From Blepharisma japonicum (taxonomy: Eukaryota; Ciliophora; Heterotrichea; Heterotrichida; Blepharismidae), in NCBI GenBank assembly GCA_949751835.1, contig CATKHK010000048.1, positions 248,001 to 312,000 on the forward strand: 64,000 bases of DNA, written 5' to 3'. The notes beneath the pieces were generated by a model, which was not told the origin of the DNA, ran no database searches, and worked only from the letters and a program-made list of their open reading frames with translations. How positions within the stretch are numbered: the stretch's first letter is position 1; the number at the start of each line of letters is the position of its first letter. This document shows, piece after piece, positions 1 to 62,638 of this stretch. The translations under genes and the position numbers were made by a program.

Positions 1-3000
1 AACCTAGCTCTTGAGCTCTTTAATAATGGCTATTTAGTTCCAGACGCAGAAATTATTAATGCTGTTCAAGCAGGGAAAGATAATTTAGCCCTTGAAATTA
101 TTCGTAAAAGAATGCATAATAATGAATATCGTGAGCTCGTTTTATGGTATTTAGCATATAAAGATTCGTTTTATGCCTTAGACGAATTTTTAATCCAAAA
201 TCAAGATTTAAGAATATATGCAATAGGCGGGATAACAATTCCAGAAGAAAGGAAAAAAATATATTCAGACCCTTCATTGGTATCAATTTCTCTTGGACAG
301 TCGATTTCTGCAAGCTTAGATTATGTAGCTTGCTATTTACTTATGCTGTCTCCATCATCGCTTACTATAAGCTCCTTTAATGAAGCTATTCAGAATTGCT
401 GCATGGGAGTCTTAAAAAGGTTATGGACAGGGGATGTCTATCAGTCTAATATTTCACTTATAAAGGCAAGGAAAAAGAAATCAGCAATTTGGAATTCGTT
501 GAAGAATCAAGCAGTTACAGTCGAAGAAAGGAAAATTTTATCAAGAGGGCTAAGACTTTCAAAAATCATTGATGCTTTGGCAGCAAAAAATAAGCTTCAT
601 GAGATGAAAGAGCTAGTTAATTGGCCCGGTGCAGCAAATGATGATGGAGTTATACAAAAGTTAATTAATTTAAGACAAGAAGAAATTGCAAAAGAAGCTG
701 CTAAAAAGTGCACAATTGCAAGCGCAAAAGATTTTGTTGTTGCATGGGAAGCAGAATATTACGATGTTTGTGTGCTTTGCTTGAAATCGGAAGGTTCAAT
801 AAGACAACTTGAAATAAATGAAATACAAGAAAAGCTTGTATCATTGCTAAATAAAGGAGAAACTTGCCTGCCTGCAATTAAAATGCTAAGCAGAATTACT
901 CCTATAGCCTGAAAATATAGCTTAACAAAAGATCTCTGCTTAAACATTCAAAACATAGCTAAACGTCACAACGAAATCATTTTCTGTCCAGCGCCTTTAC
1001 TTTTCTGTGCTCTTGCAGCTGAGTTTTTATCAGTTCTTGGGAGATCTTCTCTGCAATATGAAAACCGATGCTTCTCAGCAGCAGAAAATATAAAGGATTT
1101 AGGAGTGTGTATAGAAGAATCACTTAAGGATGAAAATGAATTAAGATATTTTCTACTACAAACTGACACTTTGGATAGGACAACACTAAATATAATTACA
1201 GTAAATGGTTTTACTAATATGCTGGAAAGTGATGAAATAGGAACCATTATTACAAAACTCTGGGTAGGGCCTAATAAAAATTATGGATTAATAGGTGCTT
1301 CAGGACTTTATACATCACTTAAGTCCCCTTCTGGGTCAGACGATGCAATGGGATTTTCAAGAAGCATGGACAAAACTAAGCCATATTTATTTCATTATAT
1401 ACAATGGATCGACTCATGCAGCTTAAGATTTAATTCCCAAGCCTTATCTACCGTTTGCCTTGTGGTTATTTATCAAATTTTGATTTACAGCGCAATTCAA
1501 GCAGACGCATTTACAGATGTCGCTAGTGATCCTACAAGTAAAGTTTTTTTAAGAATAGCTCAGTTTTGAATAGGAGGGATTCTTCTTGAGCATGTTTTGC
1601 ATTTTCTTTTTTCGTTTAAAACTGGAAGAGTATATGAAATGGGCTTTAAAGTATGGCTTGATATTTTTATGTTTATAGATATGATTTTGATAATAATAGG
1701 CTTTCAAAACTATTTGGCTGGGGATGGGAATAAATTAGACTATATAGATCCTGCATTGTGCAATGCATGCTTGCATTCGATAATGATGATACTGATCTGG
1801 ATAAGGTTTATGTCAATTTTAATTACTACGAAGACTTTTGGGCCGTTTTTAAAAATGCTGATGCTTATGATTGGAAGAATTATTAACTTTTTTGTTGTCT
1901 ATTTTTGCTTGATAGTCTGCTCAGCAGCCATTTTTACTGCGCTATTTAATGAATCCAACCCGAATTTTTTGAGTTTTTCGACATCAATTAGATCATTATG
2001 TGCAGCAGCGCTTGGAACTTATGATTTTTATGCATTTACAAAGCATATTGCGTTAGGAGGAGTTTTACTATCAATTTATCTTTTCCTATCACTTGTTTTG
2101 CTGCTTAATTTACTTATTGCAATATTATTCACCATTTTCTCGACCCTCATTACCCAAGCAGAAAACAAGCATAGGCTGACCTTGTCCTCATATTATGAAA
2201 AATATATTTGGGATGAAAAATATGGGGTGCTTATATTGTTGCCATCGCCATTAAACTATTTAACACTATTGGTTTCTCCATTGGTTCTTTTTACAAAAAA
2301 ACCAGTTAAATATAACAATATTTTGTGCAAAATTTTATTTATTTCTTTTGGCCTAATTATGTTCAGCATTTTTCTATCTGTCTCTATTTTAATGATTCCA
2401 GTTGTATTTGTAAAAGGATTTATAATTTATGGCAAAACTGGAAGATTGCTAAAGGAAAAGCGGCAAGTAAAAATTTTCAGTAATCAAAGCGGAGATCTTG
2501 ATGTTCAAGAAATAGAAAGATCAAAAATAACCAAATTCAGTAAATCAAAAACTTTTGCGTGGACTTTTATAGGCATCCCATGACTAATTTGGTCAGTTTT
2601 GAGAGACTGTTTTTATTTCTGGGCACTTATGTATGCAGATCCTGAATCAATAGTCGAAGAAAACGAAAAAGTAAAAATTGAAATGATTGTAAATCATAGC
2701 GCACTTAAAAGTATCCAAAAAGTACTAAAAAGAATCACATCACAAGACGTCAGTGTAACTTTATTCATTGAAAAATGGCTACCTATAGACAGAGAAATCC
2801 AAATTTCTACATCTTTAAGGGAAGATGTCCGTAAGCAATTGGCGTTTGAATATTTCATACAGTATGCAAATTCTTCAAGTGACCAAACAATTAATATTCC
2901 AAGGATGAGAAGATTGCTACCTAAAAAGCGAAATCATTTATATTCAGAAGAGTACTTAATAAGGACACGTCATATTAACATACCGGCATTATTAAAAGGT

Positions 3001-3261
3001 GTTAAAAAATATCAGCAGCAAATAGGGTCATTTTTTGCAACTATTTCTAATTCAGAAAAAAATAACCAAGAAGAAAAAGAGCAAGGCTTAGAACTTGAAG
3101 ACATAGAAAATCTTCAAAGCCTAATAGAAGAACTAGAAGTAAAATTCAGCAAAACCCTCACAGATTGTTTATCTCTAAGAACCGCTATGGAAGAACAAAG
3201 CAAAATCATGAGAAGACCCGAGCGGAAAAAGTCTACATTAATTGTTAAAGATATTTTATAA
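1..3261 (+). CDS. TRP-like cation channel, C-terminal part (5' end outside window)
   Basis: The frame is open from base 1 to a TAA at 3259-3261 once TGA at 910, 1567 and 2581 is read as Trp, giving 1086 residues of a protein whose start lies upstream. The first ~450 residues are helical and soluble. Residues ~465-740 contain several hydrophobic spans. A pore-like loop (SFSTSIRSLCAAALGTYDF) near 655-675 is followed by a long S6-like helix (VLLLNLLIAILFTIF) near 695-715, the layout of TRP/polycystin-type ion_trans domains. A charged, helical cytosolic tail of ~350 residues ends in basic residues. The role is probably a plasma-membrane or ciliary cation channel, possibly mechanosensory; that part is inference. 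No voltage-sensor arginine ladder was seen. Subfamily (TRPM, TRPC or polycystin) cannot be set by eye. The PGM2-like gene starts 38 bp downstream on the same strand. Confidence 0.75.
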
Positions 3262-31391: not shown

Positions 31392-33986
31392 TTAATAATT
31401 TTCTACTTTATTATCTCCAAGACTTAAAAACCACTTTTGCACGTGCTCAACAATATTTCTAACTTCTTTAACACTTGGAGGCTTGACCACTACATAAATC
31501 TTACAAAATTCGTCCATCCCTGAGTCTTTGCATCTATCTTTTAAATCTTTATCCCCTGATATTCCGCATATAAAGACTTTTTGTGCATGCATTTCTCTTT
31601 CAATTTCTCTGATTCTCTGAGTTGCTTTGTAGCCATCCATTCCTGGCATATAAACATCCATGAAAATGATTTGATAAGATGCATGATTTTCTATGCTACT
31701 TTTGTATAGCTGGACACCTTCTAATCCATCTTTTGCAAAATCTGTGCTTGTATCATAAATACCTTTTAATATAGCATCAAATATAGAACGTAAAGTAGCA
31801 TCATCGTCCACGATTAAAATTTTGAAAGCATCTCTCCAAATTTTTATTTTTGGAGTTTCATGTAGAATTGGCTCACATTTTTTAAAATCAGGCGAACCTC
31901 GAATTTTAATAGATTCTTTACTTGCCGAATGAAAAATTGGAGACAGCTCTTGGTTTATTGAATTTGTGGTTGCACTATAATTGGTCGAAATATGAGAAGT
32001 GCCAGTTAAAAATGGAGACCCTTCAGCATAAGATTTCATTTTATTAGAAACATCCGAATCTTCATCTGTTTCACTTGTGAGATGCTTAAGACCAGTCCTT
32101 GAATAAATAGGACGAATTGATAAATTTAAGCATTTCTCTACTATTCTATTGTCAGATTTACTTGATCTCCTGCTTCCTTTTATTGCTTTAATTTGTGCTT
32201 CTAATTTTTGAGACTCATCAATTGGCTTTTTCTCTTTATCTGGCTTCCATTTAGCAGTTAAAGGAGTTTCATAGACTGGTGGCGTGCTTAGCTGTAAAAC
32301 TTTATTTTTTGGTTTTTTTTGGTTAATAATATATGGGATTCTAATTGTAAGACTTTGCTTGAATTCTTTGTAATTATGGATACAAAAATTCGAGACGTAG
32401 CCTTTTAGCAATCTGAGTACAGAATCTAAAACAGCAATCCCAACACCATAAGTTTTAGAGAGATATAAAATCTCATCAAGAGTTTTCCTTCTTTCAGGGC
32501 TGTCTCTATCCTTGAAGATTAGTTCATAGTCAGATTGCTTGAATTTTTGGGATTTGTAGTTAAATGTGTAGGACACTGAAACTTCTTTTGCTACTGCAGA
32601 CTATATAAAACATACAGAAACTTCAACAATAAGCGAGATTTCACTACTATCTATTGCTTTATCTATAAATAAGCAAAGCATTGTCTGTAAAATGTGAAAA
32701 TTAATAGCTTGGTCTCCTGTGACTGCAGGAGGGATTCCTAAATCTCTTGTATAAGTAATCGTAATATTTTTCTTTGACGCCCTTGTATGGCATAATTCTA
32801 CTATATTATGGATTTCTGAATTTATATCAAAATTATCTTTATTCAATATAAGTGTGCTAGTGAATAATGTTTGGAAAAGTAAATTATCAATAAGGCATTT
32901 CTGAATGTAATTAAACATCAATAAAGTTTCTTTATTAACTGATTTTTTATGCTCAAATTCATATGCAAGCTCTTTGTTTAAGCTGTCTACAGGCAAACAT
33001 AAATTGCGATAGAGGTTGTTTATTAGAGATCGTATCATAACCTGGCTAGAAATATCAATGCAAGTCAGTCTGACACAATTTTCGGAATTTCAAATAACAT
33101 TGTCAGATTCTACCATACACCCAAGATTTTCTTTATATTCCATGCCTATTATTTGATCGTTTCCAAGAAACAAAAATTCGTCTTTACCTCTTATTCCTTT
33201 TATTGCGTTAGATATCAATAAATCAATGGAATCTTTATATCACTCTGAAAAAATATCACTAAATAGCCCTTCTGCTAATAAAGTTTCAGGCTTATTAATT
33301 CTTTTCAACAAATTTATTGCTTGTTTATTATATACAATGATCTTCCCAGCTGAATTTAGTATAAAAATTGCATTTGGAGAACTCATAAAAAAATAATGAA
33401 AAGCACTATGCAGCTTCTTATAAGTGTAATATAAAAGCCATAAATCTCTTGTATCCTTTTCTAGAATAGAGCTTGCAAATGTATAAGTCAAAATTGGCAC
33501 AACAATACCTATTGACATTCCTATTTTATATCATAAAACAACTCCTTCAAATATTCCAAAACTCATTGCTAAAGTTCATCTTTTTACCAATAAAAACGAT
33601 AAAAAAAAGCTAAAAAAAAAGCATCCAAGGCCTTCAGAAACTGACCCATCCCCAATATTTTCTCATTCAAATACCACGCATGAAAACTCCAAAAGCAGCC
33701 TTTTAGGCAGCCACGAAAGCCTTTTAAATATAGCAAAGGGTAATAATGATAGCACAATTGCTGTAATAAACATAGCCTGAATTTTACCGTAAACATATAA
33801 GGCCACTATCAAAAAAAAGAGACTAATTGCTGTGTAATTGAATGAAGTTGTTTGAAATTTAAAAATTTCCGATAAAAATCTTGATTCTAGCATTTGGTCA
33901 GTATATTCCAAAGAAGGATTCTGGAACACATTTTTATTTCTGCTAAAAATACTTGACCTTAAGGACCATAATGTTTGTGATTCCAT
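31392..33986 (-). CDS. Hybrid histidine kinase with degenerate kinase core and intact receiver
   Basis: Exons 33986-32616 and 32600-31392 (859 residues); a 15-nt intron at 32601-32615 and several TGA=Trp codons. The N terminus holds several hydrophobic helices (~40-165). A PAS-like segment follows (FFMSSPNAIFILNSAGKIIVYNKQA, ~190-215). The dimerisation helix shows NNLYRNLCLPVDSL where active kinases have SHELRTPL, so the phospho-His position is Arg 327. In the ATPase region the N-box Asn appears as Asp, DxGxG glycines are absent, but GVGIAV is kept. The receiver (~715-845) is canonical: DDD at 722-724, phospho-acceptor Asp 772 in IFMDVYMPGMDG, Lys 830. It may relay phosphate received from another kinase. 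Ligand and partner are unknown. Confidence 0.82.
32601..32615 (-). other. 15-nt intron
   Basis: GTATGTTTTATATAG on the minus strand; its TAG would stop the protein before the receiver. A at position 10. Confidence 0.87.
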
Positions 33987-34270: not shown

Positions 34271-35191
34271 TTAAGGCTTTTTCACAGGAGGACCAATATT
34301 ATAGCTTCCAGGCCCTGGCACCCATGAAGCATTTTTGGTTACTTCATCTGTAAATGATTTTGTTTTATAAGGCAAAATCACTGCCATTCTTCCTTTTTTC
34401 ATGACATGGAATTTTGCATATGCTAGCTCAGCATCAGGATAAGCACCAACTCCAGGTACATATTTTGTTTGCTGGGCACGTGTAGATAAAGCTCCAGTAG
34501 GCCTGCTTTTTGGCACTGAATAACTCTTTGTTGAAGGTGTGACTGCTTTTTTAATTGCAACTTCTATCCCATCATGATACACCCCAGGCCCAATTTTTGA
34601 TTTCTCTACCTTTTTTGGTGTTTTTGCTTTCCCTAAATTTCATTTTGGCCTTCTTTCTTCAATAAATTCAAAATTTGGCTTATATTTCCCACACTCAGGG
34701 ACTTCTTCTGCATAACTTTCCGTTGTGGTCAAAAAGTTAAGCCTTTGTCCTTTACTACATAGAAATTACTCAAATTTTCCTAGAGGGATTTCTTTGACTT
34801 TGTCAGAAACCTTTTTAGCGTCTTTAAAATAATGCCCAGGGGCAGGGACACTTTTGCTTCTTTTAACCATTTCATCAATGTCTGTTTTTCGTTTCCCATT
34901 TAAAAACTTCCCATTGGGCTTTTCCCAGTATCTTTTTAATATTTGCTCTTTAGTTTCTGCATATTTAGTAGGATCTGGGTCTTTGGACCTCTTAAGTGCT
35001 TCATCCAAGGCATCTTTCCTTTTGTCAGTTGGGAATTTGTGCTCTTTATTGATATAGATATGGTTTTTCGGAGCTATGTAGCCTTCAACACCCCATTCGC
35101 TTTGTTCAAGATGTGTGAGCTGGTACATTTCCTGTACAGAAATTGGCCTTGGAGGTTCCGGTATCGGTGTTTCAGATGACAAAACTGACAT
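34271..35191 (-). CDS. STPGR/SHIPPO-like Pro-Gly-rich ciliary protein
   Basis: Exons 35191-34770 and 34754-34271 (301 residues) around a 15-nt intron; one TGA is Trp (RRPKWNLG). Scattered Pro-Gly-x-Tyr motifs are typical of sperm-tail PG-rich (SHIPPO/STPGR) proteins: VPAPGHYF, GPGVYHD, VPGVGAYPD and VPGPGSYNIG. It is basic, has no membrane segment or enzyme domain, and carries repeated RSK-P and EKPNGKFLNGKRKTDID units. Proteins of this class bind axonemal or cortical microtubules, some as microtubule inner proteins. A ciliary role is inferred from the motifs and fits other ciliary genes in the window. It is divergent from the RIIa-GAF gene across 99 bp. Confidence 0.78.
34755..34769 (-). other. 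15-nt intron
   Basis: GTAATTTCTATGTAG on the minus strand; in-frame TAA if retained; A at position 10. Confidence 0.88.
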
Positions 35192-35290: not shown

Positions 35291-36559
35291 ATGGCCGACC
35301 CTTCTTCTTATTTCATTGAAAAGAACATTGAACAACTTTTCGAAACCCTGATGGAAGCAGTCGTAACTGCTAAGCCTGAAAACCCGCGGCAATTCTTAGC
35401 TGCACATCTTCAAGACAACCGATCAATTTCTTTTCACGACTTTTTAAGCCTTTTTAATTCAATATCAAAAATCTCAGCTGAGACAAATCCAAGAAATGCA
35501 TTTGACAGTATCATAAATGAGACATGTAAACTGTTGAATTGTGAAAGAGCAAGCTTATTTATTCATGACCCGACACAGAAGTGCTTAAAACTTATTGTAG
35601 GGAAAGGAGCAAAAGGATTGGTTTTATATGAAAATTCAGGGTTCACATGGACTGTGTTTAACACAAAACAATGTGTTAATATTGCTGATGTGTATTCTGA
35701 CCCAAGATTTGACTGCTCAGTAGACTTAACTACTGGCTTTGTATCAAAATCTATGCTAGGAGTCCCAATTCTAAATCAAGATAGAGAAGCGATAGGGGTT
35801 CTTTTGGCTTTAAACAAAAAAACGGGAGCTTTTCCTGAAAAAGATGAAGAAATTATGGCAAAACTCGCCCATCAAGCTGGAATCTCGATAAGAAATGCTT
35901 ATTACTATCAGCAAGCAATTTATAATGAAAATAAAACAAAAGTCTTGCTTCGCTTTATCAAGAATCTAAGCAAAGATAAGCCAGGCCAGCCTTTAGCACT
36001 AGAATTAGCCAAGCATGCAGGCGACTTAATTAACGCTGATAGGTGCCAGATATTTTTGATCGACCGAAGCGCAGAGAAACTTTTATTAATCGCTGCAGAC
36101 TCAGGAGTAGATTTTAGGCTTCCTTTAAACTCAGGACTTGTTTCCTATGCTGCTACTACAGGAGAAACCGTAAACATATCTAACGCATATGAAGACCCTC
36201 GAAACATCACAGATTTTGATGAAATTTTTAACTACAAAACTCAGTCCCTTATGGCAGTCCCTATAAAATGTGACGATGAAATTATTGGAGCAATCCAAGT
36301 CACTAATAAACATTACCACAATGTATTTGGGGACATTGAAATTTATGATACCTTTACAAAAGAAGATGAAAAACTCTTACAAGTTTTCAGCGAGGTTATG
36401 GGGAAAAAGCTAAAACACTCATTTAGACTGCTTTTAGACATCACACCAGTTACAGAAGATGTATCCAAGTTTGAAAGCAGCTTTGGAAAGAAAAAGAATT
36501 CATTTTCTGAAGACAGCTCAACAATGCAGGTGATTAAGGAAGAAAAAGAAACAGAATAA
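35291..36559 (+). CDS. RIIa (DPY30-like)-GAF-GAF protein
   Basis: 422 residues, single exon. Residues ~8-42 (IEKNIEQLFETLMEAVVTAKPENPRQFLAAHL) fit an RIIa/DPY30 dimerisation-docking domain, which binds amphipathic helices of AKAP- or radial-spoke-type partners. Two GAF domains follow (~65-205 and ~215-365), both of the PDE type: SLFIHD..LKLIVGKGAKGL, NIADVYSDPRFD, MLGVPIL and ALNKKTGAFPEKDEE in the first; CQIFLIDRSAEKLLLI, NISNAYEDPRN, SLMAVPIKCDDEIIGAIQVTNK in the second. No catalytic domain follows; the last ~40 residues are charged. This is a likely cyclic-nucleotide sensor docked to a ciliary or cortical scaffold. Ligand identity is not readable. Confidence 0.85.
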   Translation: MADPSSYFIEKNIEQLFETLMEAVVTAKPENPRQFLAAHLQDNRSISFHDFLSLFNSISKISAETNPRNAFDSIINETCKLLNCERASLFIHDPTQKCLKLIVGKGAKGLVLYENSGFTWTVFNTKQCVNIADVYSDPRFDCSVDLTTGFVSKSMLGVPILNQDREAIGVLLALNKKTGAFPEKDEEIMAKLAHQAGISIRNAYYYQQAIYNENKTKVLLRFIKNLSKDKPGQPLALELAKHAGDLINADRCQIFLIDRSAEKLLLIAADSGVDFRLPLNSGLVSYAATTGETVNISNAYEDPRNITDFDEIFNYKTQSLMAVPIKCDDEIIGAIQVTNKHYHNVFGDIEIYDTFTKEDEKLLQVFSEVMGKKLKHSFRLLLDITPVTEDVSKFESSFGKKKNSFSEDSSTMQVIKEEKETE

Positions 36560-38870: not shown

Positions 38871-39992
38871 ATGTCTTCTTTATTGTTCGCAAGCTTTCTT
38901 TCAGCAGCTCTTTCACAATACACCGATGATGATTTAGATATGGATTTCGATATTGTTGACACCAAAAAAGAAGAAGTCCTTCAAAACATGACTAAGCTTG
39001 AATATCAACCTCAACCTCACAATTTTTTCGTCGAGACCATCATGATTTCAATTTTATTTTTCTATGGAGTTAACTTTTTCATAGGAAAAGGCTCAAACGA
39101 AAAAATTGCAACAAGATGGATGTATTTGCTAAAATCCATTTTCCAAGAAAACTTCAGTCATGTAGGGATTGCTGAAAAAGAAGGCGAAGGCGAAATGCTG
39201 TAAACAATATATAGGAAAGATGGGTACCATGCATTTAAATACTACGCATCAGGAAGGTACAACTGTGCATATTTATTAGCAGATTTAGAACTCAACAGAA
39301 GACAAGATCTCGTTAATTTATTGATTGGGAATTTACTATGGAAAGAAAAGGACAGAATTTCTTATGAAGTCCCTATTTCTTCATCTACACAAAACCCAAT
39401 AGTGTTCGCTTTGGTCACAAATTCAGTATTAAAAAACATAAGAACGAAATATGAAGACTTAAAAACCCTAACACATGTAGTTAAAGCACCAGTACCAAGC
39501 CAATTCACAGTCCTCTCTGAAAGCCAAGACATTGTCGAATGACTCATCAATCCTCAAGTCCAAGCTATAATTGAATCCCTCGCCCCAACAATTGAAATGA
39601 TCTATATCACTGACCAAGTCATCGGAAAAAGCCAATATTCCATACATATGAGATGCGAATTTATTAAGCCAGACACTAAAAAAGAAGCAGAAGATATACC
39701 AAAACAAGCACAATTAGTCTTATTATTAACAGATTTAGTACACACACTTAAGTTATCAGCTTATGCAAAGGCTGCGGCTGATAAAGAAAGAGCTGCGATT
39801 GAAAAAGAAAAAATGAAGGAAGTCCAAGCCCAGAGAGAAGAAGAAAGACTGAAGAAAAAGATGGAACAGAAAAAGAAGGAGGAAGAAAAATTGCAAGGAC
39901 TGAGCAAGGAAAAGTTGAGGAAAATGGAGGAAAAACAATATAAGCAAGAGCTAAAGAAGAAGTCAATGAAGTTTAAGACAGTTAAAGCTTAG
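38871..39992 (+). CDS. CCDC47: CCDC47 homologue, ER PAT-complex subunit
   Basis: Exons 38871-39199 and 39215-39992 (368 residues); a 15-nt intron and one TGA (IVEWLINP). The N terminus MSSLLFASFLSAALSQ looks like a signal peptide, followed by a short acidic lumenal stretch, one TM (FVETIMISILFFYGVNFFIG) near 50-70, and a cytosolic domain matching CCDC47: YYASGRYNCAYLLADLELNRRQDL, then VFALV...VLSES and the SVHFSDQF-like IYITDQVIGK. The last ~90 residues are the basic Lys/Glu coiled coil ending MKFKTVKA, as in the human tail. In animals CCDC47 with Asterix forms the PAT complex that chaperones multi-pass proteins at the ribosome-translocon. The animal protein is longer because of its acidic lumenal region. 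Confidence 0.88.
39200..39214 (+). other. 15-nt intron
   Basis: GTAAACAATATATAG; in-frame TAA if retained; A at position 10. Confidence 0.88.
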
Positions 39993-47960: not shown

Positions 47961-48086
47961 TAAGTAATAATGAAGTAAATTGCAAAATTAATTTGTTAGG
48001 CAGTGATTTAAAGGAATTTTTTTATTCAAGGAAGTGAATAGCTGGCAAAGAAATTAATTAGTCAGATAAATTTTTCTAAAAATAAA

Positions 48087-51000
48087 ATGATAATAAGAGG
48101 CTCAAGCATAAACCCTAGTTCTTTTATGAGAGTCGATAGCTATAATCCTGGCATTGAAAAACTGAGTGAAAAAGCACTTGGAACTGGCATTATCAAGAAA
48201 GAGAAAAATTTCAGAAAACATAAGAAAAAGCAGGATTTGGAAATGCAAACTTATATAAAATTAACGTCCACAAGTGAACATGATTTTCATACAAAATGAG
48301 CGATTCTAATCCTGATCGTAAATTTATACAACATTTTTACAGCAACTTATTTCTTAGGGATAAAAGGGTTTCCATCCTCTGTATGGCTTGCTATTGAGAT
48401 TTCTTTTGAAATTATTCTTTTATGTGATTTTATTTCAAGAAGAATTTTAAAAAATTTAGAAGTGTGGAGTCGTATGTGGATGCTTCATGAGAAGTCAACA
48501 TATTTGCATAATATTTGTTTATTAGTCTCGTCAATACCCTACTCGTTCTTTTCCTTGATTATGGCTGTAAATTTAGATGGCTGAGGTGTTGCTTTATTTA
48601 GGATATTAAAAACTTTAAGGTTTTTCCAATTTTTTACTTTTTTTGAAAATCAAGAAATTCTGCTCAAAAAAGCATATGGCGGCTTTCTTATGAAAGTATG
48701 CAAATACTTGATACTTTTATTAGTAATTTTTCAGTGTACAGGAATGCTTCTACTAGTTGTAGCAAGAATTGAAGTTGATAAAAATAATCCTCACAATTGG
48801 TTGCAGCCTTGAATTGACGGACACGCCCAAAATTATGAAATTTATACAGACGCTATTTATTGAGCAGCTAGTATGTTATCAAGAATTTCTTATAATAGCC
48901 CCATCCCAAATACCGCCGGAGAAAAAGTAATTTCTGCGATTATTATGATACTTGGGGTTTTTACATGTGCTTTTATTTGTGGATTGATTGTTCATATGCT
49001 AATTACAGTTAAAGCAAAAGATTTTGAGACAGAACAAAAGCTAGAAAGAGCAAAAAAATGGTGCAGACTGCGCCATATAAATTCTCATTTAAAAGTAAGA
49101 ATTTTGGCTTATTATTACTTTGTAAGGACACAGTTTTCGCATTTTATTGATTGAGGGTTTTTAGATGAGCTTCCTTTATCATTAAAAAGTGAAATTTCTG
49201 TATCAATACATAAAGATATGATTCCTAAAGTCGCAATTTTTGAGATGGCTGATCCTTCTTTTGTGCTGTCTATAGTAAGATGTCTAATCCCTAAAGTCTT
49301 TATGGCTGGAGACTATATAATTAGACAAGGAGATTATGCAGAAGATTTATTCTTTATTAAAATAGGAACAGTGGAAGTGATTGCAGCTGACTCTGAAACG
49401 ATTATCGCTTATTTAGAAGAAGGGGACTATTTTGGAGAGATTGGGGTACTATTAGACAAAAGAAGATCACTATCAGTGAGATCTTATAATGCCACCATGA
49501 TATCATCTATATCAAAAAATGACCTTATGCCTGTGCTTCAAAATTACCCTGAATATCATGAATTCTTAAAAAACGTAGCTGAGCAAAGACTAAAAACTAC
49601 AAATACTGAAGATATTGATTATTTATATGATCTACAAGTTGATGAGTCGGACTCTGATTCTTCAGACAGCTCTGATGAGAACACAGACCCAAGCTTCGGG
49701 ACTCATATAGACCATTCAGAAAAAAATTGCATCCAAAGGTTTATATCTGTTGCCAAAACCAACGATGTCCAAGGGTCCTACATTATTGATCCTTTTTCTC
49801 GATTTTTTTATATCTGGCTGCTTACCATATCAATTAGTTTTGGGTTTTATCTTTTTTATATCCCGTTTATAATTGCTTTTGAATATTCTGATTTTGATTT
49901 ATGGCTAGCGTTTGACATTGTTGCATATGTGATTTATATAATTGATATTGCTGTATGTTCGAATACATCTTTATATACAGAACATGGGACTTATAACAGT
50001 GATATTGATTCAATAAGAAAAAATTATTTGGAAAATTATTTATTAATGGATATAATATCGTCGATTCCTATTGATTTTCTCTTAATAGCATTCGACGCAC
50101 CTCAATATGCATCAGCATTTTTTAAGCTTGTGAGGTTTTTTAAAGTAAAAAGAATTTGGAATGTATTTGGATTTTTGCAGCAACATATGAAATCTTCTAT
50201 AATATTAATAACTCTTATTGAGTCAATAACGCTAGTTATATACTACGCACATTATGTAGCTTGCATTTCTTTTTATTTAGCGAAATTGCAGTACTGAATT
50301 AATCCTAACACTAGGTTTAATAAAGAAAATTTCATCAACCAGTTTTCTCTTAACAACTATTACGATCCTGATGACACAATTCTAGATATCCCAATTTTCG
50401 ACCAGTATGTAAACTTACTTTATTTTGGCTACTCTATAGTAACTCTAGGAGTCTACGGCGACGTCCCAGTCTGCACAACAGCAGAGAAAGTCTTAAATAT
50501 GATATTTCTAATCGCATCAACCGTTTTAGAAACATTTTTAATTAGCAGAGCCTGAAATCTTGCAACAAATTACCATAAAAACCACACAGACCACCTAGCT
50601 AAAGTCTCTATCATAAAACAATGAATGAGCCATTGCAAGCTTTCAACTGACCTCCAGCATCGTGTGCTAAATTATTATAATCTTCTATGAACTAAGCTTC
50701 AAGGCTGTGACGACGAAGAAATACTTTTAGATCTTCCTGAATCTCTCAGGACTGATATCAGATATTTCCTATTTGCTGGGCTAACCAAATCAGGGTTTTT
50801 CCCTGAAGATGAAAAAGGTGCCATTTTATCTATCATAAGGAGATGCAAGCTTTCTATGGTCTGTGGAGGAGAAAGAATAGTCACCGAAGGTGAACTTGGT
50901 TTAGAGATGTATTTTATTTTAGAAGGAGAAGTAGAAATTGTGTCATCTACAGGGTTTGTGTTTAATACCCTAGGTAGTGGCATGGTTTTTGGAGAAATTG

Positions 51001-54000
51001 CTCTACTTAAAATAGTTCCTTCTGTTAGAAGCGCAACAGTAAGGGCAAAAATTGACACAACATTGGCTATATTGTCTATGAGTGATTTTAATTTCGTTAT
51101 GAATAATTATCCTGATTTTTCTCAAAAAGTAAGAAGAATTGCTGCAGATAGAGAAAGAATGAATAGGGTTACTATGCAAAATAACAGCATGAAAGCACTA
51201 ATTGCATATCAAAATGACTCAGAAATGATTAAATTTACGTCAATAGAAAATAAAGAGGAAGAAAAGCCAGAAGATATATCAAATGACCAAGAAGACATGA
51301 ATGTAACACATGATGCATTGGAAACAAAAAATTTTGCACATGGAGATGTGCCTGTTTATACATTCCAATTTAACCCACTTCTGGTCAAATTTCATACCTA
51401 CAAATGGAAGAAGCTTGTGTATTTTATAGTGAATTTTTATAATTTTGTGTGAATACCACTTCAAATTGCTTTTGAGTACAAATATGAGCATTGGTCGATC
51501 AGCTTGGAAATCTGCTCAATGATGATTTATTTAATTTTTGCCATATATTATTGGATGCTATATGATGTGACATCCAAATGCCCGCATTCAGCTGTAAAAA
51601 AGAAATTTCCTAACGTCAAGCCTAAAACTGCATTTTGAAAGTCCGTTCACAATTTATTTTTGTTTCTTCCATTTGCTATGATATTTTCGCTAAGTGAGAC
51701 GCCAGAGCCAAGATGGATAATAACAATACTTTCAATAATAAGGATTACTGGAATTTATTGTGTTGTGGATCTTTTTGATTATTTAAAACATAAAATGAAG
51801 TATTTTATCTTTTTAAGGTTTTTAGAAGTAGCTGTGGTTTATTTTATGGCTAATCACTTATGCGCATGCTTTTTTATCGAAATTGGTAGGAGTGAAGATA
51901 CAGTTCACTCATGGTTTTATAAGATTTATTTATCAAAAAGCAACTTCAGTATACACGATTCACTTTCTAATTCCACAGTTTTGGTTCATGCTTACCATTG
52001 GGCCTCTATGGTTATGTCCCATGTAGGATATGGTTATATTACTAGTGTGTCTCCTTGGGAAAAAGTTTATAACTGTTTTATGTTTCTTATAGGATTTTTT
52101 ATATTTATTGTGCTATTCGGAGGTGTTTGCTCGCTGATAAAAGAGCTTATTTCTACTAGGAGATATAAGCTTAAAGATAATTATGAATACGTCAGAGATT
52201 TCATCAATAAGAAAAAAGTTGATCAACAATTTATGAAGCAAGTTAACGATTATTTTAATTATTTATGAAAGGCAAATAAAGGAATAATTGATCAAGATAT
52301 CCTCAAAAATCTGACCCCTACTCTTATGTCTGATATACAACTTTATAGGTATTGGGAAGCTGTTCAAAATTCTCAGTTGTTTAGGAAAAAAGATGGAAAA
52401 GTTCATGAACAGCTTGCAAGGACAATGTTTAGACTTTGTTATACAGAATTTTATTTAATTGGAGATCCAATTATGCATGGTGGTGAAAGGAATAATGATT
52501 TTTTTATCATGCTTGATGGCGAAGCTGATATTATTGATATCAGAGGTAAAGTTGTTGTAAAAACGCTTAAAACAGGTGACCATTTTGGAGAAATTGGGTC
52601 ATTTATTCCTGAAATTGCAGTGAGAACTGCTAGTGCAGTTGCAATTAAAATTTGCCAGGTAGCCAGGCTAAAAGCTGACCAGCTTGAAATGCTAATGGAT
52701 GCATTTCCTGAATGATATGAATCTATGCAACAACTAGCTGAAAAAAGGCTAAAAGAAACTTTTTGTGCAGAAAACGTTGAAGAAGCCATCTCACGATTTG
52801 ATAAAATTGCTAAAAAAATTTCAAACGACCCAAGCACAGCCAAAAAGTACCAAAAAAGAACAGAAAAATTAATGGCACCAAAAATTTCAAAAATACTATC
52901 AATAGAACCAAGCAATAGATGAATGAATTTAACTCTATTACATATGGCAACTCTAATATACACAGCATTTGCCCTTCCTCTTGAAGTATGCTTCAATATG
53001 AAACTAAACTATTTTCTTTATACAATGGAAGTTATTTGTGTTTCAGAATCAATCATATTTTTTGCAATAATATCAAAATACACCATATTTTCAAGGAAAA
53101 AGAAAAATGATGAAGAAATGGATATTGAGCATCATAAGCATTTTTTAATTTTCGACATATTGGGAATGTCTCCTTTTAACTTGATATTCGATCAAATGAG
53201 AATTGATCACCCATTTTACCTAATTATTTTGCTAAGATTATTAAGGATTGTTTCAGTGTTTAGGCTTCAATCATTATTTTCGAAGATGGAAATGCAGTGG
53301 AGGCATATATCGTTTATTTTAAATTGCATTAAAGCAACGGTTATTGCAGTCATTTTTATTCATTGGCTAAGCTGCTTGTGGTACTTTATGAATTGGCAAG
53401 AAGAAGGATATTCCTGGGCTGAGTCTAATCATCTCGAAGACTCTACAACGTGAAATAAGACCTCATTTTCTTATTTTTATATACTAAATATCCTCACCCT
53501 AACTGGCTATTCTTTTATGCAAGAAGCCAACGATACTGAAAGAGTCGTTACAATAATCCTGATTTTCATTGGAGATATGCTTATTGCTATGCTTTTCGGG
53601 TTCATGGCAACTGTCATTGAATCTCACAAATCTGAGCTGCAAGACTACATTAAAAAGCTGAGCTCTCCATTTAGTGTGACGAATAATTCTGAAAAATCAG
53701 AGCAGCTAATGAAAAAACTCAAGTCGTTTTATGCATTTTCTACATCTCTAAGTCAAGTGCATGGGCCAATTGATTTTAGTCAGTTGTACATGTATTTGCC
53801 ATCGAATATTGTAAATTCAATAATTTACGAATGTAATAAGTCAATTCTTAAAGAAGTGACATATCTTCAGCTAACAGATTCAACAGAGTTGTATGAAAGT
53901 TTGGCTATGCTGCTTAAGCCAAGATTATTTTTACCAGAAGATTATATCATTTATCATTATGATTTTGGCAGCGAAATGTTCTTTATTATAGAAGGATCTG

Positions 54001-54578
54001 TTGAAATACGGTCATTAGACGGCAAAAAAACAATAAAAACGCTCTCCAAAGGCTCTGTAGTTGGAGATATCGAACTAATTACTGATGAAAAGCCTTTTTA
54101 CTCGGTCGTTGCTAAAACTTTATGTTTAAGCTATTATGTATGTAAAACTGATTTTCATAAATTGGTGAGTCAGTTTCCTGATATTTCTGAGCAAATTCAG
54201 CAAGAAACAGAAAAACTGAGGAGGGAAAGAACAGATTTAAATGTAATTATTGAGCAAGATTCTTGTATAGAAGAAGATGGATCCCCAACTGTAAACTGCC
54301 AAGATGTTATCAATTCTATGACTATATATAAGTTAGTGAATTTCCCTATTATTCAAGAAGCAAGCGACACAAACTGAATTGGAGCTTATTCAGGCCTCAA
54401 AAACTTAAATTCGCAGACGATCAAAAAATCCGGCACACTAGCGATAACGAAAAAATTATCAAAAAGAAGACCGCATTATTCAAGAGAAAATAAGAGAAGG
54501 TTTAGCAGAGAATCTATTGGAAAAGAAATCATGATATCAGAGCTTTCATCAATTTCTATTAAAACAGATAAGCCTTAA
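48087..54578 (+). CDS. Four-repeat cyclic-nucleotide-gated channel (CNGK/tetraKCNG-like) in one polypeptide
   Basis: One frame of 2163 residues from ATG 48087 to TAA 54576, no introns, ~16 TGA=Trp codons. It contains four units of ~500-550 residues, each with about six TMs, a pore loop, C-linker and cNBD. Pore signatures: ISYNS at 267-271; GVYGD at 788-792; VGYGY at 1313-1317; TGYSF at 1806-1810. cNBD phosphate cassettes: FGEIGVLLDKRRSLSVRS (F449), FGEIALL...VRSATVRA (F968), FGEIGSF...AVRTASAVA (F1500), and a weak VGDIELITDEKPFYSVVA (V1992) lacking the binding Arg. S4-like helices carry few basic residues (RILKTLRFF; KLVRFFKVKRIW; IIRITGIY; RLLRIVSVFR). Sea-urchin-type CNGK is the known precedent: four repeats, K-selective, in sperm flagella. 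A membrane, possibly ciliary, pseudo-tetramer is inferred. Confidence 0.9.
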
Positions 54579-54824: not shown

Positions 54825-56270
54825 ATGGGAGGCAAAGGCAAAGGAGGCAAAGGAGCCAAAGGGGGTAAAGGCAAAGGAGGCAAAGGCAAAGGCAAAAAAG
54901 GTGGTGAAGCAGAAGCTCGCCGCAAGGCAGAAGCAGTCGAAGACATAGAAAGCGAAGAATACAAAACCAACCTCATGCTGGAGCTCGCAGAGCTCCAAGA
55001 AGAAGCCAAAACAGAGAACGGCTTTGCATCTCTTTACCAGCAAGAAAGAGAGCGCATCAACTACTTCTGGATGGCTGAAAAGAAGCTCCTTGAAGAGAAA
55101 CAAGCCGATTTTCGCAATAAAGAATGAAGCCTCCAAGAGCTTCGAGAAAAGCACGACATTGAAATCAACGTCTGCAAACAAAGGGTCAAGCACTTGCTAT
55201 TTGCATCTCTTGACAACTTAACTGAAGAGAAAACTCAAGCTGAAATGGGCCTGAAAAACTCAGAAGATGAGCATAGGCTAAAACAGAGAGAGCTTAAATA
55301 TGACGTAAGAGCACTTAAAGTACAAGAAAAAGAAAAAGAGGTCTGTCAAGATGATTATTTAAGATCACTTAAAAAAGATGAGGACAAAAAGAAAATGGAG
55401 CTAAGGCATGAGTTCGAAAGACAAGCTATTGACTTAAAAGACAAATACACAGAAAAAATGAACAGGCTTAGGATTGATATGGAAGAAAAAAAGAAAAGGA
55501 TCATTGAACAAATTGAAGCTAAAATGAATGCAGCCATCAAAGATTTGACCAAAACACACCAGCAAAAGCTGCTTGATATCCAAAATTACTACAAAAATAT
55601 AACAGACTCAAATATTTCTCACATAAAGCAGCTGCAAGAAGACGTGGTTAGGCTTAGAAAACTAGAGGTAGCTGACTTAAAAACCCTACACAAGCTTCAA
55701 TATGAAAATAAACATTTCGTGAACCCTCTAAAAGAAACTCAACTAAAAGTCGAAGAAAAGAAAAAGGAACTTGAACAATATTTAAAAGACAAAGAAGAAC
55801 TCCATACCACATTTAAGCGTATTACAGACATTGAAGAAGAAATCAGAAACTGGACCTGGGAATATGAAGTTTTACTACAAGAGCACGATTATATAATGAA
55901 AGAAAGAGACGAAATCTATACAAGATTCCAAGACTCCATATTAGAAGTTCAACAAAAAGTCGGCTTACGAAATTTAATTCTAGAAAAGAAATTAGAAACA
56001 ATCCAAGAAACACTTGAAGCTAAAAATGTTCAGCTTTATCAAATTTTGCAATCAGCCCAGCTTAGACCAGAAGCGATTGCAATGGTCACTTCTTCCTTAG
56101 AAGACGTAGAAAATTCTAAAAATGAACAAATCGCTGCAATTCAAACTGAGCTGAAGAAAATAAGAGAAGCACACAGCAATATGGTGAAAACTTATGAAGG
56201 GAAGCTTTTTGAGTTTGGAATTCCAGTTGAGGAGCTTGGCTTTGATCCTCTTGTCCCTGCTAATGTTTAA
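54825..56270 (+). CDS. DRC4: Dynein regulatory complex subunit 4 (GAS8 homologue)
   Basis: 481 residues; TGA at 55125 (NKEWSLQEL) is Trp. After a Gly/Lys-rich basic head (repeated GGKGKGGKG) the protein is continuous coiled coil with DRC4 landmarks: LQNYYKNITDSNISHIKQLQEDV (human [20 protein letters not shown]), ENKHFVNPLKETQ, the EVLLQEHDYIMKERDEIYTRF block, IQEVQQKVGLRNLILEKKLE and the C-terminal YEGKLFEFGIPVEELGF. DRC4 forms the nexin-dynein linker base plate on axonemal doublets and controls ciliary motility. Known DRC4 is ~480 residues, the same length. The Gly/Lys head is unusual for the family. It lies 246 bp after the channel gene, same strand. Confidence 0.92.
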
Positions 56271-61069: not shown

Positions 61070-62638
61070 TTATTTAATTAATTGTTTCATAAATGCTGAG
61101 AATTCTTGATAACTTATAAGGTTATCGTGATTTTTGTCTAAGAGCTTTATGAATTCTTGAAGCTCTTCTTTTGGGATTTTTGGCATTGAGTATTGAAGCT
61201 CGGATAGATTTATAGATCCATCTCCTGAGATGTCATACAATTTAAATGCCTTTTTCAATTTTTCTTGCGATATCATTTTATTCCAATCAATAGCAGCTGC
61301 TAAAAATTCAGAGAATTCAATAGTCCCATTTCCATCAGCATCACAACTTTTCATAATCGCGTCTATATCAATATTTGAATCAATATCCACATGTTCATAT
61401 CCAGCTTTCAGCTCTTCTTTGCTTAATTTCCCGTCTTTATTAGTATCAAGCTGCTCAAATAAATCAGATAGTTGCTTTTCTTCTTCTCTTGTTAACGTAT
61501 TTGAGGCTATGAAGGTTAGGATGCATTTTTCAAATTTTGATTTTTTTCTGAAATCGTTTAGCTGAGTCAATGCACTTGAGTATAGAGGATTTGCACCTGA
61601 AGGAGTATTTAAATTAGACTGTATCCAAGGATGGTTCATTGCTTCAAATGCTGAAGGCCTTTCAGCAGGATTGAAAGCAAGAAGTTTCTTTAATAAGTCT
61701 AATAACGAGTCAGGATATTGAAGTCATTGTGGAGAATTTAAGCTCAGTCCTTTTTTGGTTAAAGCTAAGATATCTTGTTTAGTATTCCCTATGAATGGGA
61801 ATTTTCCTGTAATCATGATATGCAGAATAACTCCTGCACTCCATATATCACTTTTTTCATTAGATATCCCGTTTGAAGTCTCTGGAGCTTTATAATACAT
61901 CTAAGTTACCATTACATCTCGAACTGTAGTTTTTACACTTTTTCTCCCATATAAATATCTAGAAAGGTCAAAATTCGCAATTTTTAGATGAGAGTCTGAT
62001 GATTTGGCTTCAAAAAATAAATTTTCTGACTTCAAATGTGAATGAATAATCCCTCTTTGATGACAATAATTTAGCCCATTAAACATGTCATACATGCATT
62101 GACTCGCGATAGAGTCACTCAAATATGAATCACTTATGATTTTTTGTAATAACTCGCTACCATTAAAATATTCCGAAGCAATATAATAGCATGAAGGAGT
62201 TTCAATTGATTCATAAGTTTGTTGAATATTTGGATGAGCCTGCATATTTTATACCATTCGCTTTAGAATTTCAACTTTTTCTAAAAATAATTCGCGAACT
62301 TCTTCATCATTGTTAGGTCTTGGGTATTTTTTCAAAACTCTTTTGGCTTGCGTCCTTTTATCTATGGCAATTAGAAATTCTTTATCTGTGCCTTTGCATT
62401 CAATTTTAACAGTTTGGTAATATTGCTTGAGAGGTCCTTGCAAATTATTTGTAATAACTGGCTCTATTATATCGCTAGAATTTGTATTGTGCTTCATTGA
62501 GGGTTTTCTTGATAGAACGTGTGTGCGAGAATGCTTGATAGGATTTTGCTTTATGGACTGAATTAGGGATTCTCGGTTTTTTTTTGATTCGTCGTCAGCT
62601 TTCGTTTCTTGTTCAGGCCTCGAAGCACAACAGCCCAT
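61070..62638 (-). CDS. CDPK-like protein with degenerate kinase domain and four EF-hands
   Basis: Exons 62638-62255, 62239-61916 and 61900-61070 (512 residues). MGCCASRP predicts myristoylation/palmitoylation. The kinase domain (~72-328) keeps the subdomain II Lys 103 (RVLKKY), YKAPE and DIWSAGVILHIMITGKFPF, but the glycine loop is absent, HRD is HSH at 194-196 and DFG is NFD at 217-219, so both catalytic acidic residues are missing. The four EF-hands look sound: DTNKDGKLSKEE (388), DADGNGTIEFSE (423), DISGDGSINLSE (459), DKNHDNLISYQE (491, Gly replaced by Asn). It is probably a Ca-responsive membrane-bound pseudokinase scaffold; that conclusion is inference from the missing residues. Confidence 0.9.
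61901..61915 (-). other. 15-nt intron
   Basis: GTAATGGTAACTTAG on the minus strand; splicing gives TTVRDMYYKAPE, the expected kinase APE region. A at position 10. Confidence 0.85.
62240..62254 (-). other. 15-nt intron
   Basis: GTATAAAATATGCAG on the minus strand; splicing gives ILKRMAHPNIQ, the kinase consensus ILK-x-x-x-HPNI. A at position 10. Confidence 0.9.

Follow-up and report, generated by a model that had tools for sequence, protein, structure and literature searches.

The locus analyzed here raises the question of whether a ciliate, Blepharisma japonicum, encodes in a single gene four successive and mutually unlike CNBD-channel units and, if so, whether their common chain belongs to a known family of four-unit channels. 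The closest published architecture is CNGK (tetraKCNG), a four-repeat channel of metazoans and choanoflagellates according to the available text of PMC7576140. Among animals it occurs in marine invertebrates and fish, and it is known as a potassium channel of sperm. The presence of such a channel in a ciliate, with filters that differ in all four units, would imply either that the architecture is far more ancient or that units were fused a second time; moreover, as one chain fixes the order and stoichiometry of its units, each unit's share in gating and selectivity would be separately testable. "The window" refers throughout to the whole stretch of DNA that was analyzed (64,000 nucleotides).

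Open reading frame, genetic code and introns

The gene (48087..54578, plus strand) consists of one ORF of 2163 codons if TGA is read as Trp. The ORF contains neither TAA nor TAG, an absence with a chance probability of approx. 5e-57 given the base composition of the window, and is bounded by an in-frame TAG upstream (at 48039) and a TAA at the 3' end. With TGA as a stop, the listed plus-strand pieces of 48087..54578 are at most 359 aa long.

The ORF contains 16 TGA and 21 TGG codons. When the channel units were aligned with 24 relatives, 15 of the 16 TGA codons fell within aligned parts, and at four of these (aa 71, 259, 868 and 1394) most relatives carry Trp (18, 22, 22 and 22 of 24, respectively). 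At the remaining 11 of the 15 aligned TGA codons the relatives show mixed residues or gaps, as they do at many TGG codons. W occupies 92 of 306 alignment cells at TGA positions and 119 of 427 at TGG positions, as compared to 1.2% at non-W positions. As W is enriched at TGA positions much as it is at TGG positions, UGA most likely represents Trp in this gene; the alternative readings as stop or Cys were dropped, since the W content at the aligned TGA positions favours Trp.

An intron scan of the window identified 31 candidate frame-restoring short introns, 10 of them 15 nt in length; the clearest candidates (e.g., 34755-34769, 39200-39214, 61901-61915 and 62240-62254) start with GTA and end with AG. 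Inside the channel ORF, on the other hand, the motif GTA-N9-YAG was found 0 times, with 1.5 occurrences expected, and GTA-N10-YAG was also absent. An in-frame intron hidden within the ORF is therefore unlikely, and a concealed 15- or 16-nt GTA...YAG intron was rejected. The four plus-strand rows that the intron scan placed within the ORF (two near 48476, the others near 49200 and 50958) were attributed to chance, as each joins another frame to the open one. In its short introns, its use of UGA as Trp and its mean AT content (approx. 68%), the window resembles Blepharisma stoltei, which according to the available text of PMC9942806 has introns of 15 and 16 bases, an AT content of 66% and a code in which UGA is Trp; these features point to a Blepharisma-like heterotrich. 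Overall, these data bear out three claims of the preliminary description, i.e., that the gene is a single frame, that UGA is not a stop in this organism and that the genome is of a ciliate type.

Four diverged channel units in one predicted protein

The predicted protein holds four successive, strongly diverged S1-S6/C-linker/CNBD units, all on the plus strand: unit 1 at 48087..49739 (aa 1-551; S1-S6, C-linker and CNBD), unit 2 at 49740..51269 (aa 552-1061), unit 3 at 51270..52859 (aa 1062-1591) and unit 4 at 52860..54575 (aa 1592-2163), the last with a basic C-terminal tail. Pfam searches with the whole protein matched PF00027 in four stretches (E 9.6e-59) and PF00520 in four stretches (E 2.3e-25). 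When the units were searched separately, PF00027 was above the cut-off in all four, PF00520 (Ion_trans) only in unit 4 and PF07885 (Ion_trans_2) only in unit 3; the remaining membrane parts were assigned from hydropathy and from PDB sequence matches that extend from S1 to the CNBD. NCBIfam gave CNBD-type matches only, all far below the cut-off.

The PDB searches covered the best 60 of 196, 202, 144, 106 and 111 matches, and the top match of each unit was a CNG-type channel (LliK, CNGA3, SthK and LliK for units 1 to 4, respectively; E from 3e-27 to 1e-40). Among the matches listed, unit 1 scored highest with LliK (143 bits, pore to CNBD) and CNGA3 (139 bits, S1 to CNBD), unit 2 with CNGA3, TAX-4 and HCN4 (130, 128 and 119 bits), unit 3 with SthK (99 bits, pore to CNBD) and EAG1 (75 bits, S1 to CNBD), and unit 4 with LliK and SthK (100 and 89 bits). 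Extra searches with S1-S6 of units 2 and 3 returned the GORK sequence and, again, CNGA3 and SthK. Judged by PDB matches and PF00027, the layout of the CNBD-channel superfamily (6TM pore, C-linker, CNBD) is present in 4/4 units. AlphaFold models of units 1 and 4, built on 4-row alignments, were of low confidence (mean pLDDT 58.0 and 50.7) and are too poor to inform on pore geometry. Fold searches with these models placed CNGA1 first for unit 1, and LliK followed by SthK for unit 4; the fold matches listed had TM-scores of approx. 0.25-0.46 and added little.

Identity between units ranges from 18.9 to 21.7% (BLAST), with phmmer scores of 50-66 bits. The earlier claim of four unlike 6TM-CNBD units is thus upheld by PF00027 in 4/4 units, a separate PDB match for each unit and mutual identities of approx. 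19-22%.

Selectivity filters

None of the four filters has the consensus sequence. Where T-V/I-G-Y-G-D would be expected, unit 1 reads RISYNS (48882..48899, plus strand, as are all filters); unit 2, placed as against GORK, reads LGVYGD (50445..50462); unit 3 reads HVGYGY (52020..52037), the sole GYG among the four units; and unit 4 reads LTGYSF (53499..53516). HMMER alignments gave the same placement (unit 1 against LliK, unit 2 against GORK, unit 3 against SthK and unit 4 against LliK), except that the alignment of unit 2 with CNGA3 was shifted and set VYGD on TIGE. The reading of the unit 2 filter is therefore the least sure from these alignments; it is not T-x-G-Y-G-D under either placement.

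For comparison we used 21 bacterial rows (19 fetched sequences plus LliK and SthK), which also served for the PBC counts below. T-x-G-Y/F-G-D is present in 21/21 of these rows as compared to 0/4 units, and the shorter motif G(Y/F)GD also occurs in 0/4 units. The usual Thr is replaced by Arg in unit 1, Leu in unit 2 (a residue that depends on the alignment), His in unit 3 and Leu in unit 4. The central Tyr is found in 4/4 units under the main placement, while the Asp that follows is found in unit 2 only. CNGA3 and TAX-4, with TIGE filters, also depart from T-x-G-Y/F-G-D. Both conduct although their filters lack GYG, which indicates that a CNBD channel can conduct without this motif; plant CNGC filters depart from GYG as well, yet these channels conduct. 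Large departures from TVGY/FG are rare outside metazoan CNG channels, as stated in the available text of PMC7576140. As the filter is asymmetric, the pore of the window protein is probably not classically K+-selective, and, as all four filters are off consensus, conduction itself is putative.

CNBDs and S4 segments

PF00027 matches define the CNBDs of unit 1 (49293..49547), unit 2 (50868..51110), unit 3 (52452..52700) and unit 4 (53925..54173), all on the plus strand. The phosphate-site (PBC) Glu and Arg, which are present in 21/21 bacterial rows, are kept in 3/4 units, i.e., as Glu and Arg in units 1 and 2 and as Glu and Arg-Thr in unit 3. Unit 4 has lost the ligand site, with Asp in place of Glu and Pro in place of Arg. 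How far such motifs predict gating can be seen in CNGK: the available part of PMC4749565 reports that one cGMP on the third CNBD opens the sea urchin channel, and that zebrafish CNGK is pH-gated rather than nucleotide-gated despite its four CNBDs. Intact CNBD motifs are therefore no proof of gating.

The 29-residue stretches around S4 contain 3, 6, 3 and 4 Lys/Arg residues in units 1 to 4, respectively, and manual counts for the S4 core are 3, 5, 1 and 3. A charge-rich S4 of the HCN type (at least 7 basic residues) was found in 0/4 units.

Relationships among the units

Pairwise scores did not single out one pairing. With phmmer, units 1 and 2 were the top pair (66 bits) and units 3 and 4 were each other's best match (61 and 58 bits); BLAST scores were highest for units 1 and 2 (89 bits), followed by units 1 and 3 (82), 2 and 3 (76), 1 and 4 (67), 3 and 4 (62), and 2 and 4 (61). 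The pair of units 2 and 4 was thus the weakest with both programs.

A tree was built from 28 rows, i.e., the four units, 19 bacterial channels and five PDB pieces, a sample without CNGK or ciliate single-unit sequences. One bacterial CNBD-channel relative, whose frame is interrupted by a single in-frame TGA, was excluded. The units grouped together with the three eukaryotic rows, outside the bacteria (support 98/97). Unit branches were very long (2.4-4.4), and 45% of 200 bootstrap trees united the four units. The pair of units 2 and 3 received a support of 88/45 and may represent long-branch attraction. Approximately unbiased (AU) tests did not reject the four units as one clade (P = 0.57), nor did they reject any of the pairs 1+3 (P = 0.45), 2+4 (P = 0.39), 1+2 (P = 0.42), 3+4 (P = 0.45) or 1+4 (P = 0.52).

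No CNGK chain was found in the PDB among the best 60 of 196, 202, 144, 106 and 111 matches. In viral contigs, a scan with the protein yielded 1 stretch that matched the pattern and a scan with the unit alignment yielded 87, of which 0 were confirmed in either scan. A GTDB scan confirmed 32 loci among 169 stretches; in all of them the match began no earlier than query residue 327, covering C-linker and CNBD, and they were left out of the tree. Six of the genomes with these loci yielded 34 matches, all from model position 322 on.

A probable asymmetric cation channel and its alternatives

From the sequence features above, we consider it fairly probable that the gene product is a cation channel gated by cyclic nucleotides, asymmetric and made of a single chain, whose filter is altered and probably not classically K+-selective. 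By analogy with CNGK, Nav and Cav, the four units of the chain would fold around one pore as a pseudo-tetramer. Binding of cGMP or cAMP to the CNBDs of units 1 to 3 would be relayed to S6 by the C-linkers, while the CNBD of unit 4 would have a structural role. Voltage would act weakly at most, as the S4 segments are charge-poor. Rather than classical K+ selectivity, the likelier property of the pore is weak selectivity for cations, or a cation path that is self-restricted or modulated, and a cyclic-nucleotide signal would in this way reach the membrane potential and, from there, ciliary beating. A channel whose dissimilar units share out their tasks in this manner would be reminiscent of NALCN or Cav more than of CNGK.

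As for the origin of this channel, we tentatively propose, as a possibility somewhat short of an even chance, an independent fusion in the ciliate lineage, with units specialised in the manner of NALCN or Cav domains, i.e., with Arg, Leu, His and Leu at the base of the filter, ligand sensing by three of the CNBDs and a structural role for the remaining one. We know of no earlier asymmetric four-unit CNBD channel; if the independent-fusion reading is true, the protein would be the first known one and could be an effector through which cGMP signals shape the behaviour of heterotrichs.

It is rather unlikely that the protein is instead a fast-evolving ciliate CNGK, inherited from an early eukaryote or acquired by transfer, which would still be a K+ channel and would hyperpolarise the cell on cGMP. 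The shared architecture of four units with four CNBDs, at least one of which looks non-functional here as in CNGK, agrees with such membership, and so does the reach of the family to choanoflagellates (PMC4749565, available text). CNGK repeat 1 is near repeat 3 and repeat 2 near repeat 4, as given in the available part of PMC7576140; neither of these pairings was rejected by the AU tests for the window protein, and units 1 and 3 were the second-best BLAST pair, but units 2 and 4 were the weakest pair by phmmer and BLAST. Also against membership, the G(Y/F)GD motif that CNGK pores carry (PMC4749565, available text) is missing from all four units, and the units are approx. 20% identical, whereas CNGK domains are described in the available text of PMC6259924 as nearly identical and without obvious specialisation.

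A second reading that we regard as improbable is that of a non-conducting or near-non-conducting sensor, in which the pore has decayed (as the Arg in the unit 1 filter might indicate) but signalling by CNBDs or voltage sensors persists. The pore of HCNL1 is not known to conduct, and the departure of all four filters from T-x-G-Y-G-D would fit a comparable loss. HCNL1 provides a proton path via its voltage sensor, as described in the available text of PMC11700363; the few S4 charges of the window protein, however, disfavour a path of this kind. The central Tyr in 4/4 units, pore regions that can still be aligned with working channels and the conduction of metazoan CNG channels with filters off GYG also argue against a sensor without conduction. 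Finally, a gene-model artefact, in which paralogues were joined during assembly or the units belong to different genes or transcripts, is highly improbable given the long frame free of TAA and TAG, the stops just upstream and at its end, the lack of a hidden in-frame intron candidate, and a unit identity of approx. 20%, which is too low for a collapsed repeat.

Neighbouring genes and cGMP signalling

Directly downstream of the channel gene lies a gene for a GAS domain protein (54825-56270, plus strand; PF13851, E 2.6e-53), which we take to be probably a GAS8/DRC4-like ciliary subunit; as a hint at a ciliary use of the channel, this neighbour is suggestive at most. Elsewhere in the window, a gene cut by the window edge (1-3261, plus strand) with Ion_trans and PKD_channel matches represents a second, TRP/PKD-like channel. 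A locus on the minus strand (31392-33986), in which two frames are joined by a likely 15-nt intron (32601-32615), has a PF00072 response-regulator receiver in its downstream part and no Pfam match in its upstream part, and may encode a ciliate hybrid histidine kinase. A candidate sensor of cyclic nucleotides is encoded at 35291-36559 (plus strand): this protein has two GAF domains and a sub-threshold RIIa docking match, and none of its Pfam hits is a catalytic domain. A calcium-dependent protein kinase, with a kinase part and four EF-hands, is encoded at 61070-62254 (minus strand) and contains two of the likely 15-nt introns listed above (61901-61915 and 62240-62254).

Light avoidance in Stentor, another heterotrich, is said in the available text of PMC4588039 to be governed by cGMP, and a channel for this pathway is worth seeking. 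Little on cGMP in Blepharisma was found among the papers listed.

Comparison with known channels

Among the listed titles and beginnings of abstracts of openly available papers, we found no report of a four-unit CNBD channel in ciliates; an unremarked database entry for such a protein is likely to exist. Likewise, no tandem CNBD channels were identified in ciliates by a 2020 survey, as far as its available text goes (PMC7576140). The same text describes two-repeat CNBD tandem channels in dinoflagellates and oomycetes, so that CNGK is not the sole fused exception for which the preliminary description had taken it. Like the window protein, these tandems are fused CNBD-channel units in protists (alveolates and stramenopiles); they have two units as compared to four here, a comparison made by description only.

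CNGK remains the nearest four-unit architecture, as had been proposed, since in both cases one chain carries four 6TM-C-linker-CNBD units, and in both some CNBDs are apparently not ligand-competent. The suggested CNGK reading, on the other hand, is supported in part, as the likeness extends to the architecture and not to the pore. The window protein differs from the CNGK of PMC4749565 (available text) in having G(Y/F)GD in 0/4 units, from the near-identical domains reported in the available text of PMC6259924 in the approx. 20% identity of its units, and from a family of metazoans and choanoflagellates in its ciliate host. For the CNGK pairs 1-3 and 2-4 the scores speak neither way: phmmer pairs units 1-2 and 3-4, BLAST pairs units 1-2 and then 1-3, and AU tests rejected none of the pairings tested.

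Metazoan CNGA and TAX-4 and bacterial LliK and SthK are the top single-unit matches among the matches listed. CNGA and TAX-4 share a non-GYG filter with the window protein; unlike it, all four have one unit per chain, with filters that are either TIGE or TxGYGD.

According to the available text of PMC6259924, asymmetry arose only in the Nav/Cav/NALCN line, a claim to which the four unlike filters described here run counter. In NALCN, Cav and Nav, filter residues and sensor charges are likewise split unevenly among four linked units, but these channels differ from the window protein in lacking CNBDs and in having another filter chemistry; the likeness, drawn from general knowledge and PMC6259924, is one of analogy and implies no kinship.
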